Shown in pieces: positions 43,269 through 63,964 of a stretch of DNA of 64,000 bases. Position numbers and translations under genes: made by a program. Each line of letters opens with the position of its first letter. Position 1 is the first letter of the stretch. Source of the DNA: Longibacter salinarum (GTDB lineage Bacteria; Bacteroidota; Rhodothermia; Rhodothermales; Salinibacteraceae); the NCBI RefSeq assembly GCF_002554795.1, contig NZ_PDEQ01000008.1, forward strand, positions 1 to 64,000, written 5' to 3'. The notes under the pieces are model-generated. The model saw nothing but the letters and a program-made list of their open reading frames with translations, was not told the origin of the DNA and ran no database searches.

Positions 43269-44573
43269 ATGCAAAAGATTCTCCTCATTCTCCGAAGCGA
43301 GTTCTGGCGCCGCGCCCGATCGAAGGCGTTTATTCTCGCGACCCTTCTCGTCCCGGTCTTCATCGTGCTCGCGTCGATCCTGCCGTCTGTGTTCATCTAC
43401 CTGGGCGAGCAGCAGAGCGACGACCAGACGATTGCCGTCGTCGATGAAACGGGGCGCCTCCTGTCGGCGCTGCAGGCAGAAGCTGGCGATGGTACGCGCT
43501 ACCAGTTCACCGCGAGCGATGCTCCTGCCGACTCGCTGCGGGATCGTGTCCTCCGTGGCGACCTGGATGCCTACCTCGTGCTCCCTGCGACGCTGCTCGA
43601 CGGCGAGGGTACGCCGGCCTACTTCAGCACCGAGAGCGGCGGTATGACCGGCCCGATGCGACTCGAGAACCTGATCGAACGAACGGTGCGCAACACCCGC
43701 CTCACGGATCGTAACGTGCCGGATGAGGTGCGCCAGATCATGAATGCGAACCTCAACCTCTCGGCGCACACGATCACGGAAGAGGGCACCGAGCAGCAGA
43801 GCGCACTCAGCGGACTACTCGGGCTGATGATGGCACTCGCCGTGTACATCGCCGTCTTTGTCTACGGTCAGTACGTGATGCAGGGCGTCATCGAAGAGAA
43901 AAGCAATCGCGTCGTCGAGGTTGTGGTGTCCTCCGTGAAACCCTTCGAGTTGCTGATGGGCAAAGTCCTGGGCATCGGAAGTCTTGGCCTCATGCAGATG
44001 GTGGTCTGGCTTGTACTTGCGGGAGCGGGACTCACCTTCGGCGGGACGATCCTCGCCCTGTTTCTTGACCCGGCCGATCTCGGCGTCGCGCCGGACGCGT
44101 CCAGCCAGGCGATGATGGAGGCCGCTGGCGTCACTCTTCCGACCGTGCCGCTGAGCCTGATCTTCTGGTTCATCATGTTCTTCCTCGGCGGCTACTTGCT
44201 CTACGCCAGCCTGTTTGCCGCCGTGGGCTCGGCGGTGGAGCAGCAACAGGACGCCCAGAACCTGCTCTACGTTGTCGTCCTCCCGCTCGTCATCCCGATC
44301 ATCGCAGCGACGTACGTCCTTCAGCTTCCCAACAGCACGATGTCGGTGGTGCTCTCCCACATCCCGTTCTTCTCGCCGGTCCTGATGCCCGTGCGCATGT
44401 CAGCGACCACGGTACCGACCTGGGAGGTGCTAATTGCGTATGCCCTGCTCGGCGCCACCTTCATGGTGATGATCTGGCTCGCAAGCCGTATCTACCGCGT
44501 GGGCATCTTCATGTATGGAAAAGCCGCCAGCCTGTCCGAGATTGCGCGCTGGGCGACACGGCAACACGGATAG
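43269..44573 (+). CDS. ABC-2 type permease (NatB-like)
   Basis: The 434-residue product has one N-terminal helix (residues 20-43), a large outside domain (about 44-180) and five further helices in the C-terminal half, as in NatB/ABC-2 permeases. YVMQGVIEEKSNRVVEVVVSSV and PFELLMGKVLGIGSLGLMQM are the characteristic region. It pairs with the ATPase gene just upstream. The substrate is unknown; NatB relatives export sodium. Confidence 0.9.
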   Translation: MQKILLILRSEFWRRARSKAFILATLLVPVFIVLASILPSVFIYLGEQQSDDQTIAVVDETGRLLSALQAEAGDGTRYQFTASDAPADSLRDRVLRGDLDAYLVLPATLLDGEGTPAYFSTESGGMTGPMRLENLIERTVRNTRLTDRNVPDEVRQIMNANLNLSAHTITEEGTEQQSALSGLLGLMMALAVYIAVFVYGQYVMQGVIEEKSNRVVEVVVSSVKPFELLMGKVLGIGSLGLMQMVVWLVLAGAGLTFGGTILALFLDPADLGVAPDASSQAMMEAAGVTLPTVPLSLIFWFIMFFLGGYLLYASLFAAVGSAVEQQQDAQNLLYVVVLPLVIPIIAATYVLQLPNSTMSVVLSHIPFFSPVLMPVRMSATTVPTWEVLIAYALLGATFMVMIWLASRIYRVGIFMYGKAASLSEIARWATRQHG

Positions 44574-44615
44574 GTTCAGGGTTCAACGTTCAGAGTTCAG
44601 AGTTCAGGGTTCAGG
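44574..44615. repeat. GTTCAGG heptamer array
   Basis: Six phase-perfect heptamers run GTTCAGG GTTCAAC GTTCAGA GTTCAGA GTTCAGG GTTCAGG, beginning at the first base after the ABC permease stop codon. It is the clearest array of this family in the window. Confidence 0.85.
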
Positions 44616-44671
44616 GTTTTACGGGCTGCCGGATGACCTGAAGGGAATGTCGACCTAGGTATTCAACGAAG

Positions 44672-54671: not shown

Positions 54672-54920
54672 CGCCAAACGGACCAACGTTTCAACGTTCT
54701 AACGCTCAACGGTACACGGGTCGATCGTACATCGTTTATGGTTGGTTGGATTTGTCGCCGTACAGATCGCCTGCGCTCCCCAATTCCAAATCCCCAATCC
54801 ATAACGTCCTAACGTTCCACCGCATCAACGACCAACGCTAGAACGTTCCAACGCATCAACGCCTAACGTCAGAACGTTCCAACGCCTTAACGTCCCAACG
54901 TTTTAACGCATCAACGAAAA
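54672..54920. repeat. GNNYYAAC octamer array
   Basis: The gap between the desulfurase and DUF2480 genes is largely degenerate octamers ending in AAC: for example GTTCCAAC GCATCAAC, GTCAGAAC GTTCCAAC GCCTTAAC, and GTCCCAAC GTTTTAAC GCATCAAC, with CCCCAATTCC and CCCCAATCC runs between. Nothing else is visible in the gap. Confidence 0.75.
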
Positions 54921-56874: not shown

Positions 56875-57633
56875 ATGCAGCTTAACTTGTCGGATCAGAC
56901 GGTTCTCGTCACCGGCGCCAGCCGTGGAATCGGGCGCGCCATCGCACTCGCCCTCGCATCGGCCGGGGCCACCGTCGGCGTCCATTTCGCCAGCAGCCGC
57001 GATGCAGCCGAGGAGGTCGCCGATGCATGCGGGCACGGGGCTCAGACCTTTCAGGCGGACCTTTCGGACCTCGGTGACACCGACCGCCTGATCGAAGACG
57101 TGATTGCCACGCTCGGAGGACTCGACGTGCTGGTCAACAACGCGGGCGTAGCCCTGTCCGCCCCGCTCGAAGACGATACTCCGACGTGGGATGACGCGTG
57201 GACGCGGACGATGATGGTGAACCTCCGCGCGCCGGAGCTCCTCTGCCGTCACGCCGTCACGCATTTCCAGGAGCATGGCGGCGGCCGCATCATCAACATC
57301 GCCTCCCGCGCAGCCTTCCGCGGCGACACGCCCGACTACATGGCCTATGCCGCGTCGAAAGCCGGCGTCGTCGCCCTCACGAAGTCGCTCGCCCGCGGCT
57401 TCGGCAAGGACAACATCAAGGCGTTCGCCATCGCGCCCGGCTTCACTCGAACGGACATGGCGCAGGACTTCATCGACACGTACGGCGAGGACTACGCCAC
57501 CAGCGACCTCGCCCTCTCGCAGCTAACCGAGCCGGAAGACGTCGCTCCGACGGTCGTCTTCCTCGCCAGCGGGCACGCGGATCATGCCACCGGCACGTCG
57601 ATCGACATCAACGCAGGGAGTTACGTGCACTAG
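56875..57633 (+). CDS. Short-chain dehydrogenase/reductase (FabG-like)
   Basis: The 252-residue product is a classical SDR: the cofactor motif TGASRGIG (residue 14), NNAG (about 89), the catalytic Ser in INIASRAAF and the Y-x3-K pair in YAASK (about 159), then AIAPGFTRTDMAQ. NAD(P)-dependent reduction of a 3-oxoacyl-ACP or similar ketone is likely. The ATG at 56875 directly precedes the first strand. Its end overlaps the convergent hydrolase gene by 26 bp. Confidence 0.93.
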   Translation: MQLNLSDQTVLVTGASRGIGRAIALALASAGATVGVHFASSRDAAEEVADACGHGAQTFQADLSDLGDTDRLIEDVIATLGGLDVLVNNAGVALSAPLEDDTPTWDDAWTRTMMVNLRAPELLCRHAVTHFQEHGGGRIINIASRAAFRGDTPDYMAYAASKAGVVALTKSLARGFGKDNIKAFAIAPGFTRTDMAQDFIDTYGEDYATSDLALSQLTEPEDVAPTVVFLASGHADHATGTSIDINAGSYVH

Positions 57634-58477
57634 CACCTGCCGTCACGCGCGGGCCAGGATCTTCGTCCGTTTCGGAACGAGTCGGCTCGTCGGATTCCAC
57701 GCGCTGAAGGAAGTCGTCGAGGATCGCGTTGAACGCGTCCGGCTTTTCGACGGGAAGGGCGTGCCGCGCGTCGTCGACCACCGCAAGCTCGGCATTCGGC
57801 ATCTGGGCGACCGCCAGATTCTTCTCCGAAATCGGCGTGTAATCGTGCTCGCTCGATACGAGCAGAGCGGGCATCGTGACGCGGTCGAGCCGGTCCTGAA
57901 CGGTCCAGCCCATGATGGCGTCGACCGTTCGCACGTAGGCCTCGGGATCGTTCTTCGCCCACCGCTCGACGAACTCGGACCGCAGGTCCTCCTGATCCGG
58001 GCGCACGAACAGCTTATTGGCGATGATCTTGCCCACGCGTCGCATCCCGAGCAGCTTGACGGCAAAGCGGCGCGACAGGTAGAACCAGACGTCATGAAGC
58101 GTCTGCGGCCGGACGTCGACCGCACTGTTCACCACGACCAGGCTCCGCACAAGCTCTGGCGCATCCGTAGCAAGCTGCATCGCCACCATCCCACCCATCG
58201 ACAACCCGACGACGTGCGCGGGCCAGGCGTCGAGCTGCCGCAGCACGACGGCGACGTCCCGCGCAAACTGGGCAATGCTGTACGGCTCCTCCGGCTTATC
58301 GGATCGACCGTGACCGCGCAGATCGAGCGTGATGACGCGGTACCGATCTGCAAGATGCGGCACCTGCTTGAACCAGTCCCGCGCGCTCGACCCCAGTCCG
58401 TGAAGGAGAATAACCGGCTCACCCGCTCCCTCTTCCTCGACATACAGGCGAGCGCCGTCTACCGTTATTGATGACAT
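57608..58477 (-). CDS. Alpha/beta hydrolase
   Basis: The 289-residue product has the hydrolase fold: VILLHGLGSSARDWFKQV (oxyanion region), DLRGHGRSDKPEEPYS, the nucleophile elbow GLSMGGMVAMQ (about residue 95), a late Asp in SSEHDYTPISE and His in DARHALPVEKPDAF. It resembles 3-oxoadipate enol-lactonase-like and carboxylesterase proteins. A long C-terminal tail (RSETDEDPGPRV) is unusual. It is the last gene of the minus-strand run with a second hydrolase, an AMP ligase, a symporter and a ketosynthase-like gene. Confidence 0.88.
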   Translation of the reverse strand: MSSITVDGARLYVEEEGAGEPVILLHGLGSSARDWFKQVPHLADRYRVITLDLRGHGRSDKPEEPYSIAQFARDVAVVLRQLDAWPAHVVGLSMGGMVAMQLATDAPELVRSLVVVNSAVDVRPQTLHDVWFYLSRRFAVKLLGMRRVGKIIANKLFVRPDQEDLRSEFVERWAKNDPEAYVRTVDAIMGWTVQDRLDRVTMPALLVSSEHDYTPISEKNLAVAQMPNAELAVVDDARHALPVEKPDAFNAILDDFLQRVESDEPTRSETDEDPGPRVTAGASARNSLR

Positions 58478-58577
58478 CATATTCCGGATAGAAGCAAACG
58501 ACATATCGGACGCCGCTCCTACTTCTTTCCGGTGCGTTCGTTCGCACACGCCGTCGCCGCCCCCTCTGCTTGCATCG

Positions 58578-59579
58578 CTATTCCGATGATTCACTTGCTT
58601 CCTGTCCATCCAGCATCGAGCGCAGCAGTTCGTCGAAGCGCTCGGGGCGCTCGATCATGATGAGGTGGCCCGCGTCCTCAACGACCTCGACGCGAGCGTC
58701 CGGCATTGCCGCTTTCGCCGAATCCGCGATGCTCTGCGGCGACTGCTCCGGGTGAAGGTATCGATTAGGAATCAGCTTATCGCCCGCACCGAAGAGGACG
58801 AGCGTCGGCACGTCGATCTCGCTGAGACGCTCATACACCGGGCCGTCCAGCATGCCCGAAACGGCCTTGGCGTTTGCCTCCGCGTACGCTGCGAAGTCGT
58901 CGCGCTCCGACAGAGCATGGCGCTGCTTCACGAGCCAGTCGTAGCCCTCCGTGTACTCGTGGAAGTTGAGCGCAACCGACTGCTGCACCTGCGCGTCCGT
59001 CGACGCCATGATGCCTTCTGCCGACATCATACTGCGAATCGCCTGGCTGTCCTTCTCTGAAAAGGTCTCAATCCCCGCCGGCGACATCAGCACGAGGCCG
59101 TTGAGCCGATCGCCGTGCTCCAATGCCACATGTAGCCCGACCTGCCCGCCCATTGAGGCGCCGACGTAGGTAGCTTTTTCGATGTTCATGGCGTCCAGGA
59201 AGCCGACGACGGTTTCCGCAAAGAAGGGCATGGTCGCCGGCACGTCTTCCTTTTCCGAAAGACCGAACCCGGGCAGGTCCAGCGCGAGGACGCGGTACTC
59301 CGGGAAGGCGTCGACCTGATGGCGCCAGAGCGAAAGATTGGAGCCGAGACCGTGGACGAAGAGCAGCACAGGCGCGTCCTCACCGGCTTCAGCGGGCCGC
59401 TCTACGAACGCAATCATGCGGCCATCGACGTCGGTCACCTGCACATTCCCCGGGTAAAACGGGAGTGGATTCACTGTGGACGTGTCGGCGTCGGTCGTGT
59501 CCGCGTAAGCGTTCGGGGTGGCAGAGGCCGGAGAGGCAGGAACAGTCATGAGCGCAAGCGCGAGAAGGAAGGCAATCAT
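58578..59579 (-). CDS. Exported alpha/beta hydrolase
   Basis: The 333-residue product has a signal peptide (cleavage near SPASATPN, residue about 20), then an alpha/beta-hydrolase domain: VLLFVHGLGSNLSLWRHQ, DLPGFGLSEKEDVP, the elbow GASMGGQVGLH (about residue 143), a late Asp in GAGDKLIPN and His in DAGHLIMIERPERFDE. It is probably periplasmic, unlike the neighbouring hydrolase. It lies 41 bp after the AMP ligase gene on the same strand. Confidence 0.9.
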   Translation of the reverse strand: MIAFLLALALMTVPASPASATPNAYADTTDADTSTVNPLPFYPGNVQVTDVDGRMIAFVERPAEAGEDAPVLLFVHGLGSNLSLWRHQVDAFPEYRVLALDLPGFGLSEKEDVPATMPFFAETVVGFLDAMNIEKATYVGASMGGQVGLHVALEHGDRLNGLVLMSPAGIETFSEKDSQAIRSMMSAEGIMASTDAQVQQSVALNFHEYTEGYDWLVKQRHALSERDDFAAYAEANAKAVSGMLDGPVYERLSEIDVPTLVLFGAGDKLIPNRYLHPEQSPQSIADSAKAAMPDARVEVVEDAGHLIMIERPERFDELLRSMLDGQEASESSE

Positions 59580-59620: not shown

Positions 59621-61132
59621 TTATGCGGGTGCGAATCGGTCGGCGAGCTCCGACTTCTGGATCTTGCCCGAATGACCTTTGGGCAGTTCGTCGAGGAATC
59701 GGACATGGCGCGGCACCTTGTACCGTGCGAGATGCGAGCGAGCGTGGGCTAGCAGCTCGTCTTCGGTCAGTGACTGCCCCTCCTTGAGCGCTATGAAGGC
59801 TGCGCCCGTTTCGCCCCAGGTATCGTCCGGCACGCCAATAACAGCCGCCTCGGCGACCGCGGGATGCTCGTACAACGCCGTCTCGACCTCCGCGGGATAC
59901 ACGTTTTCCCCGCCCGAGATGTACATTTCCTTTTTCCGCCCAACCACGTAGAAGTAGCCTTCGTCATCCACGCGAACCAGGTCGCCCGTGGCGAACCATC
60001 CGTCCTCGTCGATGGCCTCAGCCGTCGCCTCCGGGTTACGCCAGTAGCCGGGCGTCACGACCGGGCCGCGCATCAGCAGCTCTCCCGTCGTGTTCGCCGC
60101 CACGTCGTTTCCGTCCTCGTCCACCACCCGCGTGTCGATGTAGAAATTGGGAAAGCCGATCGACCCGATCTTGCGGAGCGCGTCCTTTTCCGGAAGGGAA
60201 AAGCAGTTTACGCCAACCTCGGTCATACCGAAGCCCTGCCGGATCGGAACGCCCTTGTCCTGCCACACGCGGATGAGCGGTTCGGGCATCGCCTCGCCCC
60301 CGACAATGGCGTAGCGGACGGATTCGAGCGTCACCTCGTCGAACGCCGGATGGTCGCTCATCATCTTGAGCATCGTCGGCACGCCCCAGAGAATCGTCAA
60401 CTCCTCGTCGTCGCACAGTCGCAGAATCGCTTCCGGGTCGAACGAGGGCAGCAAAAACGTCGTCGCACCGTGATGAAGGAACGGTGTCAGCAGCACATTC
60501 CATCCGCCGGTATGGTAAAAAGGCGCTGCGTTGAAGGAGCGGTCGTTCGAGGTCAAATCGAGCCGCATCTCGGTGTTGACCGAGTTCCACGCGATCATCC
60601 CGTGCGAGATGATTGCCCCCTTCGGCCGCCCGGTGGTGCCGGACGTGTACAGGATCATCACCGGGTCGTCCAAGCCGGGCTGCGGGGGAAGCTCTGCTCG
60701 CGGGACAGGCGTCAGCGCATCGTTGGTTTCCGACAGCGCGAACACTTCGTCCAGCGGAAGAAGGTCGGCCGGCGTATCGAGGTCTGTGACGGTGTCGGCG
60801 TAGTCGGCCCCGACGAAGATCAGCGAGGGCTCGGCGTCGGTGACGACGTACTGCAGCTCCGGGAGCGCGAGTCGAAAGTTGAGCGGCACCAGCACGAAGC
60901 CGGCCGTCTGCGCCGCGAGGAAGAGCAGCACGTGCTCGACCGCGTTCTCCGCCAGCACGGCGACACGGTCGCCCGGCGACAGATCGTGGCGCTTGATGAG
61001 CGTCGCCGCCAGCCGCGTGGCTCGTGTGTGCAATTCGGCGTACGAGTATTTCCGCCCCGTCGGCGCCCAGACGATCGCCGGATGGTCGGGCGTGTAGAGC
61101 GCGTGCCGTTCGAGCCAGTCCGTTCGGGTCAT
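59621..61132 (-). CDS. AMP-dependent acyl-CoA synthetase/ligase
   Basis: The 503-residue product has all ANL-family core motifs: A3 YTSGTTGRPKGAIISHG (residue about 170), FYHTGGWN, A5 QGFGMTEVG (about 300), A7 DGWFATGDLVRVDDEGYFY, A8 GRKKEMYISGGENVYPAEVE and the A10 catalytic Lys in GKIQKSEL. It activates a carboxylic acid, most likely a fatty or related acid, through an acyl-AMP and usually on to acyl-CoA. It belongs to the minus-strand run with the symporter and two hydrolases. Confidence 0.93.
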   Translation of the reverse strand: MTRTDWLERHALYTPDHPAIVWAPTGRKYSYAELHTRATRLAATLIKRHDLSPGDRVAVLAENAVEHVLLFLAAQTAGFVLVPLNFRLALPELQYVVTDAEPSLIFVGADYADTVTDLDTPADLLPLDEVFALSETNDALTPVPRAELPPQPGLDDPVMILYTSGTTGRPKGAIISHGMIAWNSVNTEMRLDLTSNDRSFNAAPFYHTGGWNVLLTPFLHHGATTFLLPSFDPEAILRLCDDEELTILWGVPTMLKMMSDHPAFDEVTLESVRYAIVGGEAMPEPLIRVWQDKGVPIRQGFGMTEVGVNCFSLPEKDALRKIGSIGFPNFYIDTRVVDEDGNDVAANTTGELLMRGPVVTPGYWRNPEATAEAIDEDGWFATGDLVRVDDEGYFYVVGRKKEMYISGGENVYPAEVETALYEHPAVAEAAVIGVPDDTWGETGAAFIALKEGQSLTEDELLAHARSHLARYKVPRHVRFLDELPKGHSGKIQKSELADRFAPA

Positions 61133-61167: not shown

Positions 61168-61201
61168 GTAGTAAGGGCGCATTGCGATGCGCCCTTACTA
61201 C
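61168..61201. repeat. Mobile-type hairpin supplying a stop codon (2)
   Basis: GTAGTAAGGGCGCAT and ATGCGCCCTTACTAC form a perfect 15-bp stem around TGCG. The symporter gene's TAG stop (61198-61200) lies within it. It is related in sequence to the hairpin at 51600-51631. Confidence 0.78.
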
Positions 61202-62685
61202 CGGGCGTTGGTGGCCGGGGCCGGGCGGCGGTTCAAGGCCATCGCGCCGAGGGCCACCAGCGTGCTGGACACCAGCGCCGCCGTCGCCGGAACGGCCGGG
61301 TTGTTCGCATACATCGTGATCTCGCCGTAGTACATGCCGAAGTGCACGACCAGCGCCGTGATCGCGGCCGTGAGCACCGCTCCCTTCGAGATGCGATCCG
61401 AGAAGAAGATGCCGAACAGGATCGGGACGAAGGTGGCCGAGAACAACGCGTAGACGCCGTTCTGCCCGAGGATAGCGACCGACAGATTCGGGTTCACAAT
61501 CTGCCCGTAGGAAATCAGCGCGACGACCGGCACGAGCGCAACGAGGAAATACCGGCTGTAGCGAACGGCGCGCGCATCGATTTCGTCATCGTTGAGACCC
61601 CCGTTACGCTTCGCGAGTGGACGGTAGATATCGTTCGAGAAAATCGTCGAGAGCGCGACGAGCAGCCCCTCCATCGTGGAGAAGCCGGCTGCGACCAGGC
61701 CGATCAGGATCACCGAACGCACGAGCGGCGAGAACACCTCGACGATGTAGGTCGGCACCACGGCGTCGGGCTCGATCATAGCGCCCGGCATCAGGATCCG
61801 CGCGTACAGCCCGACGAGGATGACGGCGAAGAACAGCACCAGAACGACAATCCCGGTCGTCAGGTAGGTGTTGACGTCCTTCTCACTCTTCAGATAGAGC
61901 GCCTTCGACATCACGTGCGGCTGATTGATGATCGCGACCCCGATCAGCACGTTGCACGCCACCACCTCGAACCAGTCTCGGAAGAGTAAGCTTTCGGGAT
62001 TGACGGGTTCGGCCAGCATCGGGTCGATCGCTGCGAGACGATCGAGAAAGCCGCCGATGCCGCCCGCGAAGTATTCTGCGCCAGAGCCCAGCAGGATTAT
62101 GGCCACGATGATCATCAGTCCGGCCTGCGCGGCGTTCGTCAGGGTGTGCGCGCTCGCCCCGCCGATGGAGATGTAGATGAGCGGAATACCGATCGTCATG
62201 GCCATCGCGACGAGCATCGGCACCTCGAGCACGCTCGACAGGACGCGCGTCAGCCCGACGGTGATGAGCACCAGAAAGGCGATCTGCAGCAGACTGGCGA
62301 CGGCGAAGAAGATCGTCAGCCGGCGGTCACCGAATCGATCGCCGATCCACTGCGGCACCGTCAGCGCCGTTACCTCGTCGCCGACGCGGCGAAAGGCCTT
62401 CGAGAAGATGATGAGCCCGATGAAGACGCCCACGGGCAACGCGACGGCATACGCGATCACGCCACTCACACCGTAGAGGTAAATCAGCCCCGGGTTGATG
62501 ATGAATGTCGCGGCGCTCGTGAGATTCGCGGCAAGGGACATCCCGATCCACACCGGGCTCACCTCGCGGCTTCCAACGCTAAAGGCCGAGAACCCGGTCA
62601 TCTTCTTGATGCCGATCACCGCCGCACTCGTCACCGCGGCGAGATACAGACCGAAAAAGATCCAGGCAAAGGTCGTTTCTCCCAT
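61198..62685 (-). CDS. Sodium:solute symporter (SSS family)
   Basis: The 495-residue product has 13 predicted membrane helices in the LeuT-like SSS pattern: FSVGSREVSPVWIGMSLAAN at helix 1 (sodium/substrate region), TALTVPQWIGDRFGDRR, YISIGGASAHTLTNAAQAG, and GLVAAGFSTMEGLLVALSTI. Relatives import acetate, pantothenate, proline or monocarboxylates with sodium. The substrate is unknown; in this gene run an acid for the AMP ligase is a plausible guess. Confidence 0.9.
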   Translation of the reverse strand: MGETTFAWIFFGLYLAAVTSAAVIGIKKMTGFSAFSVGSREVSPVWIGMSLAANLTSAATFIINPGLIYLYGVSGVIAYAVALPVGVFIGLIIFSKAFRRVGDEVTALTVPQWIGDRFGDRRLTIFFAVASLLQIAFLVLITVGLTRVLSSVLEVPMLVAMAMTIGIPLIYISIGGASAHTLTNAAQAGLMIIVAIILLGSGAEYFAGGIGGFLDRLAAIDPMLAEPVNPESLLFRDWFEVVACNVLIGVAIINQPHVMSKALYLKSEKDVNTYLTTGIVVLVLFFAVILVGLYARILMPGAMIEPDAVVPTYIVEVFSPLVRSVILIGLVAAGFSTMEGLLVALSTIFSNDIYRPLAKRNGGLNDDEIDARAVRYSRYFLVALVPVVALISYGQIVNPNLSVAILGQNGVYALFSATFVPILFGIFFSDRISKGAVLTAAITALVVHFGMYYGEITMYANNPAVPATAALVSSTLVALGAMALNRRPAPATNAR

Positions 62686-62905: not shown

Positions 62906-62940
62906 CTGAACCCTGAACTTTGAACCCTGAACCTTGAACT
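62906..62940. repeat. Heptamer array after element C
   Basis: Five phase-perfect heptamers CTGAACC CTGAACT TTGAACC CTGAACC TTGAACT run up to 4 bp before the ketosynthase gene's stop codon. Confidence 0.85.
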
Positions 62941-62944
62941 ATCG

Positions 62945-63964
62945 CTACGGCCCCCAACGAAGAGCCATGCCGGCGATTGCGGCGCCACCGCCCGAGGCGA
63001 TGAGAAACACCAGGTCGCCGGCCGACAACATTCCCTGCGCGTCCGCATCGGCCAGAGCCATCGCGATGCAAGCATTTCCGGTGTAGCCGAAACGGTCCAT
63101 CACGTTGTGCGCCTTCTCCTCCGGCAGGTCGAGGCGTTTCAGCGTCTCTCGGATGCTCTCGATGTTGATCTGCGTGAAGAAGTACCGGTCGACGCCCTGC
63201 GGCGTCACGTCGAGGTCATCGCACAGTTCGTGGACAAGCCGCGTCCAATGGTCTGGATTGAAGCCGTCGGGGAATTTCTTTCTGAACTCCAGCTTCTGCA
63301 CCCGGCTCGGTGCGCCGTCGCCCTCTACATTCGGCGAGATCGGAGCCGCCGCGCCACCCGTGTAGATGCCCATGTACTCGGCGAACTGGCCTTCGGATTT
63401 CAACTTCGACGTCAGAATTCGTCCACCATCGTCCGCCTCGGCAGCACCTCGCCCCTTCAGTACGGCTGCACCAGATCCATCGGCGAACAGCGACGCGACG
63501 TTCTTCTGCTCGTAGTCGATGAAGCGGCTCATCAGGTAGGCGCCGACGACGAGAACATGCTCGTACGATGCGTCGGCCTCGACGAACTTCCGCGCCGTGT
63601 CGAGCGCCGTTACGAAGCCCGCGCAGGCGGTGTTGAGGTCGAACGTTGCGGCATTCACGGCGCCGAGCTTGTCCTGCAGCACGGCGGCCGTTGAGGGCGA
63701 GAGGTAGTCCGGCGTATCGGTCGACACCACGATCAGATCGATGTCGGTGGCATCGACTCCAGCCTTTTCAAGCGCCATTCGAGACGCCTCTGCAGCAAGA
63801 TCGCTCGTCGCCTGGTCCTCGGCCGCGTACCGCCGCTCCTTGATGTTGCGACGCTCCCGGAGAAAGCTATCGACATCTTCGCCGTACAGCTCGTTGAAAT
63901 ACTCGTTCGGCACGACGCGCTCCGGCGCATACAGTCCCGTCCCGATAATCGATGCCGTTCGCAT
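62945..63964 (-). CDS. 3-oxoacyl-ACP synthase III-like protein (ketosynthase), decarboxylation residues replaced
   Basis: The 339-residue product has the FabH/thiolase fold with the nucleophile Cys114 in DLNTACAGFVTAL and the usual FADGSGAAVL and GDLVFLIASGGGAAIAG blocks. Ungapped alignment to E. coli FabH puts Thr264 (FFTQIN) at the catalytic His244 and Tyr294 (RFGYTGNA) at Asn274, so both residues that drive malonyl decarboxylation are gone. It may be an acyltransferase or condense acyl groups in another way. It starts at ATG 63964, the upstream end of the minus-strand run with the symporter, AMP ligase and hydrolases. Confidence 0.88.
   Translation of the reverse strand: MRTASIIGTGLYAPERVVPNEYFNELYGEDVDSFLRERRNIKERRYAAEDQATSDLAAEASRMALEKAGVDATDIDLIVVSTDTPDYLSPSTAAVLQDKLGAVNAATFDLNTACAGFVTALDTARKFVEADASYEHVLVVGAYLMSRFIDYEQKNVASLFADGSGAAVLKGRGAAEADDGGRILTSKLKSEGQFAEYMGIYTGGAAAPISPNVEGDGAPSRVQKLEFRKKFPDGFNPDHWTRLVHELCDDLDVTPQGVDRYFFTQINIESIRETLKRLDLPEEKAHNVMDRFGYTGNACIAMALADADAQGMLSAGDLVFLIASGGGAAIAGMALRWGP

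Follow-up and report, generated by a model that had tools for sequence, protein, structure and literature searches.

The gene that closes the window (the whole 64,000-nucleotide stretch analyzed here) encodes a protein of the KAS III fold in which the nucleophilic Cys of FabH is kept and both partner residues of its catalytic triad are replaced. As judged from the sequences, these Cys-Thr-Tyr changes define a subfamily rather than one odd gene. Our preferred reading, to which we assign a probability of about 0.4, is that this distinct subfamily makes or breaks a C–C bond between CoA-type thioesters without decarboxylation.

Fold and active site of the window protein

The gene and the codons that matter most to the argument are listed below, with positions in the window.
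62945-63964, minus strand: 339-aa protein with the KAS III fold, a member of the Cys-Thr-Tyr subfamily; its ATG is at 63964
63716-63718, minus strand: codon of Asp83, which matches Thr81 of FabH and the catalytic Glu79 of the HMG-CoA synthase from S. aureus; Asp in 75/75 members
63623-63625, minus strand: codon of Cys114, the nucleophile position, equivalent to FabH Cys112; Cys in 75/75 members
63173-63175, minus strand: codon of Thr264, in the slot of FabH His244; Thr in 75/75 members
63083-63085, minus strand: codon of Tyr294, in the slot of FabH Asn274; Tyr in 75/75 members

The protein is a member of the KAS III fold superfamily by its Pfam domains, its fold, and the position of its Cys nucleophile. 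Both KAS III domains were recognized (ACP_syn_III, 82.7 bits for a cut-off of 24; ACP_syn_III_C, 77.2 bits for a cut-off of 26.6), and the AlphaFold model (mean pLDDT of 90.8) had FabH as its top Foldseek matches, with 29 to 33% identity and a TM-score of about 0.86 to 0.94. FabH was likewise the neighbor in BLAST and HMM comparisons. The protein nonetheless scored under the cut-offs of the curated FabH models (TIGR00747, 213.8 versus 292.1; NF006829, 234.1 versus 249), and its score with the acetyl-CoA acyltransferase model TIGR01930 (21.8 versus 240.55) places it outside the biosynthetic thiolases (PhaA/AtoB). No subfamily member was found among the PDB chains scored with a subfamily profile, the best matches being FabHs, and no description of a Cys-Thr-Tyr KAS III subfamily was found in the open-licence literature, where the motif itself is not searchable as text. 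The subfamily is a variant of a known fold family and apparently undescribed.

Residue equivalences come from aligning the protein by MAFFT with S. aureus MvaS and a presumed E. coli FabH sequence. The MvaS letters were confirmed over their full length against PDB 1xpk. Cys114 aligned with FabH Cys112, Thr264 with His244, Gln265 with Gln245, Asn267 with Asn247, Tyr294 with Asn274, and Thr295 with Thr275, free of gaps in both C-terminal motifs. The preliminary description of this DNA had reported just this, i.e., Cys114 kept, Thr264 for His244, Tyr294 for Asn274, and both alignments ungapped, and its numbering is borne out; it gave no strand. The changes extend beyond the two substitutions that it named to Asp83, Tyr143, Asn236, Trp240, and Ser324, and to the loss of FabH residues Trp32, Arg36, Arg151, and Arg249. 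The latter contact CoA or ACP; they are kept in 24 to 25 of 25 FabH-type sequences and are replaced by mixed residues in the subfamily. MAFFT and an independent profile alignment both pair Asp83 with MvaS Glu79. In FabH, His244 and Asn274 stabilize the malonyl-ACP enolate (PMC10054515).

Conservation, distribution, and phylogeny

Full-length homologues formed two sets, one about 40 to 89% identical with Cys-Thr-Tyr and the other about 30 to 38% identical with Cys-His-Asn. The 75 subfamily members compared come from the phyla Bacteroidota, Bdellovibrionota, Chloroflexota, and Pseudomonadota. Asp83, Cys114, Tyr143, Pro232, Asn236, Trp240, Thr264, Gln265, Tyr294, Gly296, and Ser324 are invariant in all of them, and the Cys-His-Asn set differs at each of these positions except Cys114 and Gln265. 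The FabH triad is replaced by Cys-Thr-Tyr in 75/75 members, including homologues retrieved blind to the motif through overall-similarity searches of relatives, GTDB contigs, plasmids, and a gammaproteobacterial order, whereas it reads Cys-His-Asn in 26/26 comparison sequences. The Cys-Thr-Tyr pattern is therefore neither a chance occurrence nor an assembly artifact.

A motif scan found a member in 35 of 394 Bacteroidota genomes, and a reversed control pattern gave 0 matches. The first scan of Pseudomonadota (0/398) used too strict a motif; a relaxed version recovered one true member, together with a second match that looked like chance. Within the gammaproteobacterial order of that member, 37 of 54 genomes were positive in the motif scan. 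A search of the same order by similarity alone returned 38 full-length genes at 52% identity or more, followed by a gap down to 36%, and these were the same 38 as in the motif scan.

HMG-CoA synthase gave a very long branch, and the tree was therefore rebuilt without it. One branch (91/93) then split off the subfamily, and another (99/97) the canonical Cys-His-Asn set. A phylogeny had been proposed in the preliminary description as a check on these proteins, and it sets the Cys-Thr-Tyr sequences apart.

Canonical FabH and fatty acid initiation

The genome of the window carries two other KAS III genes, both of the Cys-His-Asn type, one of which lies between open reading frames taken by eye as plsX and fabD. 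With a canonical FabH at this plsX-fabH-fabD locus, the window gene is predicted not to be the fatty acid initiator. The preliminary description had judged it unlikely to start fatty acids in the usual way and had asked whether it was the only FabH of the genome; the former view is well supported, both by the separate Cys-His-Asn fabH and by the missing residues for malonyl-ACP use, and the answer to the latter is that it is not. Similarity searches of the relatives also revealed a further KAS III gene in every one that has the subfamily gene. Since the non-Cys catalytic residues are replaced in every member examined, across four phyla, the subfamily almost certainly performs a chemistry different from that of FabH with the Cys retained.

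The protein could still be an ordinary decarboxylating KAS III, with Thr, Tyr, and Asp substituting for His and Asn, as its nearest fold and its BLAST and HMM neighbors, all FabH, would suggest. The canonical fabH at its own locus, the other KAS III gene in every carrier among the relatives searched, the loss of Trp32, Arg36, Arg151, and Arg249 of the comparison FabHs, and the missed FabH cut-offs make this very improbable. The Chloroflexota copy is annotated as "ketoacyl-ACP synthase III." Generic KAS III models pick up the subfamily proteins, which may therefore be taken for fatty acid initiators in pathway reconstructions.

Gene neighborhood

Downstream of the KAS gene, the window holds the following genes.
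61198-62685, minus strand: sodium/solute symporter family transporter, the next gene downstream of KAS; most Rhodothermales loci have an orthologue at this position, and some other Bacteroidota an MFS transporter instead
59621-61132, minus strand: AMP-forming acyl-CoA ligase, a conserved neighbor in Bacteroidota and Bdellovibrionota
58578-59579, minus strand: alpha/beta-hydrolase with an N-terminal hydrophobic segment, signal-peptide-like by eye; a conserved neighbor
57608-58609, minus strand: second alpha/beta-hydrolase, with no evident signal peptide and an uncertain start codon

Intergenic spacers at 62907-62939, 44573-44618, and 54811-54900 of the window contain short degenerate tandem repeats, with units such as TGAACCCTGAACCT and GGTTCAG; translated within spurious open reading frames, these repeats appear as VQGSGF-like stretches.

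The order in Rhodothermales is MarR-like regulator, TonB receptor, FabG-type SDR, KAS, Na+/solute symporter, AMP-ligase, and secreted alpha/beta-hydrolase, to which a second alpha/beta-hydrolase is often added. In the genome of the window, the SDR and the TonB receptor lie just past the window end (about 64093-64845 and 64991-67591, respectively, on contig C8). Other Bacteroidota show regulator, SDR, KAS, transporter, AMP-ligase, outer-membrane protein, and hydrolase, with an MFS transporter sometimes in place of the symporter. The SDR and hydrolase are divergent from KAS, AMP-ligase, and a secreted protein in Bdellovibrionota. A Chloroflexota plasmid operon (L099 9179-15177) combines SDR, KAS, and a CoA-transferase with a thiolase-like protein, a Zn-ribbon OB-fold protein, an alpha/beta-hydrolase, and a branched-chain-type ABC transporter, and acetyl-CoA C-acetyltransferase-type thiolases occur inside the cluster in several loci. 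Together, these genes suggest that an acid is imported and activated with CoA, and the subfamily most likely acts on such imported, CoA-activated acids.

The gammaproteobacterial copies, about 40% identical, occupy a very different setting from the Bacteroidota cluster. There, KAS lies between the pyruvate dehydrogenase genes aceE-aceF-lpd and those for an NAD-glutamate dehydrogenase and an alpha/beta-hydrolase (L166, L167, L168, L171, and others), with no evident reductase or ligase partner in this neighborhood, and the copies may differ in substrate. The NAD-glutamate dehydrogenase is about 1610 aa long, and a malic enzyme sometimes follows the alpha/beta-hydrolase.

In four Bacteroidota loci (L110 12101-13132, L111 11900-12928, L118 12316-13338, and L109 8026-9048), a PRK06840-type KAS III gene stands directly downstream of the AMP-ligase, and a heteromeric partnership of its product with the subfamily KAS is possible. 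Pairing of two KAS III proteins in a heterodimer has been described (PMC12141560), and the subfamily protein might even be a regulatory or scaffold subunit devoid of enzyme activity, partner to a second KAS III as LstB is to LstA. We consider such a subunit improbable, as Cys114 and a shell of polar residues are invariant in 75 sequences from four phyla and most clusters have no second KAS III beside the gene.

The neighborhood was also weighed for a PhaA-like step supplying polyhydroxyalkanoate (PHA) precursors to a storage-polymer pathway. The PHA synthase PhaC adjoins the gene in two genomes, and the genome of the window has genes for a PhaR-like protein and a phasin about 5 kb upstream of it. 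PhaC (TIGR01836) was, however, detected in just 6 of 80 genomes tested and 5 of 40 carriers and was not found in the genome of the window, and most clusters carry uptake and activation genes instead, which leaves this function with little likelihood. The PhaC search registered the class I enzyme of Caulobacter, and a missed class I enzyme is therefore unlikely. PHA synthesis was rejected as the general role, PhaC being not found in most carriers, that of the window included. The PhaR-like gene (L004 8817-9374; about 68816-69373 on C8) scored below the TIGR01848 cut-off and the phasin gene (L004 9396-9857; about 69395-69856 on C8) above that of PF05597; both lie beyond the window, and the PhaC search of this genome was negative. 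In the two Bacteroidota genomes with an adjoining synthase, a class III PhaC over the TIGR01836 cut-off is directly upstream of regulator-SDR-KAS (L114 4740-5849 and L115 5537-6739), and a large open reading frame beside it may encode PhaE.

Proposed reaction

The preferred reading, non-decarboxylating C–C chemistry on CoA thioesters, draws on the active site and on the cluster. The Cys-Thr-Tyr combination together with Asp83, Tyr143, Pro232, Asn236, Trp240, Gly296, and Ser324 is common to 75/75 members in four phyla, and the genes stand in clusters with an AMP-ligase (or a CoA-transferase in Chloroflexota), a FabG-type reductase, and transporters. A catalytic His is retained in both HMG-CoA synthase and OleA but is absent here, so that, to our knowledge, no enzyme shows C–C chemistry by Asp-Cys-Thr-Tyr, and the dedicated thiolase of some clusters could make a second C–C enzyme redundant. 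The location of Asp83 at the catalytic Glu79 position of HMG-CoA synthase nevertheless suggests Cys-dependent chemistry without decarboxylation. In HMG-CoA synthase, the glutamate takes the alpha proton from the acetyl-enzyme (PMC13412983), and a glutamate is essential in two non-decarboxylating KAS III-type enzymes, OleA (Glu117; PMC7064751) and LstB (Glu60; PMC12141560).

In the reaction that we envisage, an acyl-CoA would acylate the invariant Cys114, as in other KAS III enzymes; Asp83 would serve as the base at the alpha carbon; and Thr264, Tyr294, and Tyr143 would assume the polar roles of the lost His and Asn. Gene content suggests a route in which an acid would be freed by the secreted alpha/beta-hydrolase, brought in by the TonB receptor and the Na+ symporter, and converted to its CoA ester by the AMP-ligase. 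KAS and the FabG-type reductase would then interconvert acyl-CoA, beta-keto-, and beta-hydroxyacyl-CoA, breakdown being the probable direction.

A pure acyltransferase is possible, though somewhat doubtful. Cys114 would then take an acyl group from the acyl-CoA made by the AMP-ligase, and a carrier protein or small molecule would accept it on a hydroxyl, amine, or thiol, with no C–C bond formed, in the manner of CerJ/ChlB3. The invariance of Cys114 agrees with such transfer, for which loss of the enolate-stabilizing His/Asn pair (PMC10054515) would be expected, and an altered triad has a precedent among KAS III-fold acyltransferases in the Cys-His-Asp of ChlB3 (PMC9573744). Those enzymes, however, rely on a His-Asp pair, whereas the two slots compared here, FabH His244 and Asn274, hold Thr and Tyr; simple transfer offers no evident function for the invariant acid at position 83 in the acyl pocket; and the loci compared show no conserved carrier protein or glycosyl/peptide partner nearby. 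The preliminary description had left the choice between a transferase and a non-decarboxylating condenser. Both fit the data as putative activities, and the HMG-CoA-synthase-like acid at position 83 favors the condenser. A non-decarboxylating C–C enzyme on CoA thioesters appears somewhat favored over an acyltransferase.

More broadly, we tentatively propose, short of calling it probable, that a KAS III-fold family spanning four or more phyla exchanged Cys-His-Asn for Asp-Cys-Thr-Tyr and makes or cleaves C–C bonds of CoA thioesters without a His at the canonical position, as the central step of a widespread acid-uptake pathway of Bacteroidota, and that it was recruited to a pyruvate/glutamate dehydrogenase cluster in one gammaproteobacterial order. 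If so, the subfamily would be an enzyme class in its own right, unusual in its active site and marking a recurrent transport-activation-reduction operon of Bacteroidota. Mutation of its invariant residues would offer a way to learn how a thiolase fold can work without its histidine.

Comparison with known systems

The window protein shares with FabH the fold, the Cys nucleophile, Gln265/Asn267, and the glycine motifs, but it differs by His244 to Thr, Asn274 to Tyr, Thr81 to Asp, and Phe304 to Ser, and its gene lies outside any fatty acid locus. CerJ and ChlB3 resemble it in having a KAS III fold with an altered triad and a retained Cys, yet they need a His-Asp pair (PMC9573744) where Thr and Tyr occupy the FabH His244 and Asn274 slots here. 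The PRK06840-type "3-oxoacyl-ACP synthase" (NF005308) has an acid at position 83 (Glu), Tyr143, Gly199, and Trp240, and occurs in the same cluster in four loci; it nevertheless forms a separate clade (100/100) with Leu/His and His at other catalytic columns, and the window protein scores 165.6 with NF005308, under the cut-off of 315.

OleA and LstA/LstB have a KAS III-type fold and a catalytic acidic residue, and Ole clusters likewise combine a thiolase-fold enzyme, an alpha/beta-hydrolase, an AMP-ligase, and an SDR. OleA and LstA, however, retain the Cys-His-Asn that the subfamily lacks. The slot of OleA Glu117, located from its distance to the Cys along the sequence (FabH Phe87), holds Ser89 or Thr in 75/75 members (PMC7064751), and an OleA-type base was rejected accordingly. 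The reductase here is of the FabG type, and uptake genes are present; despite the similar enzyme classes, membership in the Ole (olefin) clusters was rejected, the SDR scoring as FabG.

Against HMG-CoA synthase (MvaS; PksG/CurD-like), overall similarity is weak (hhalign probability of 85%; TIGR01835, 37.3 versus 360.35), and the catalytic His233 is absent, so that Glu-Cys-His becomes an Asp in the Glu slot with the Cys kept. The two have in common an acid at the Glu79 position, the Cys nucleophile, and a local Tyr-Thr-Gly motif.
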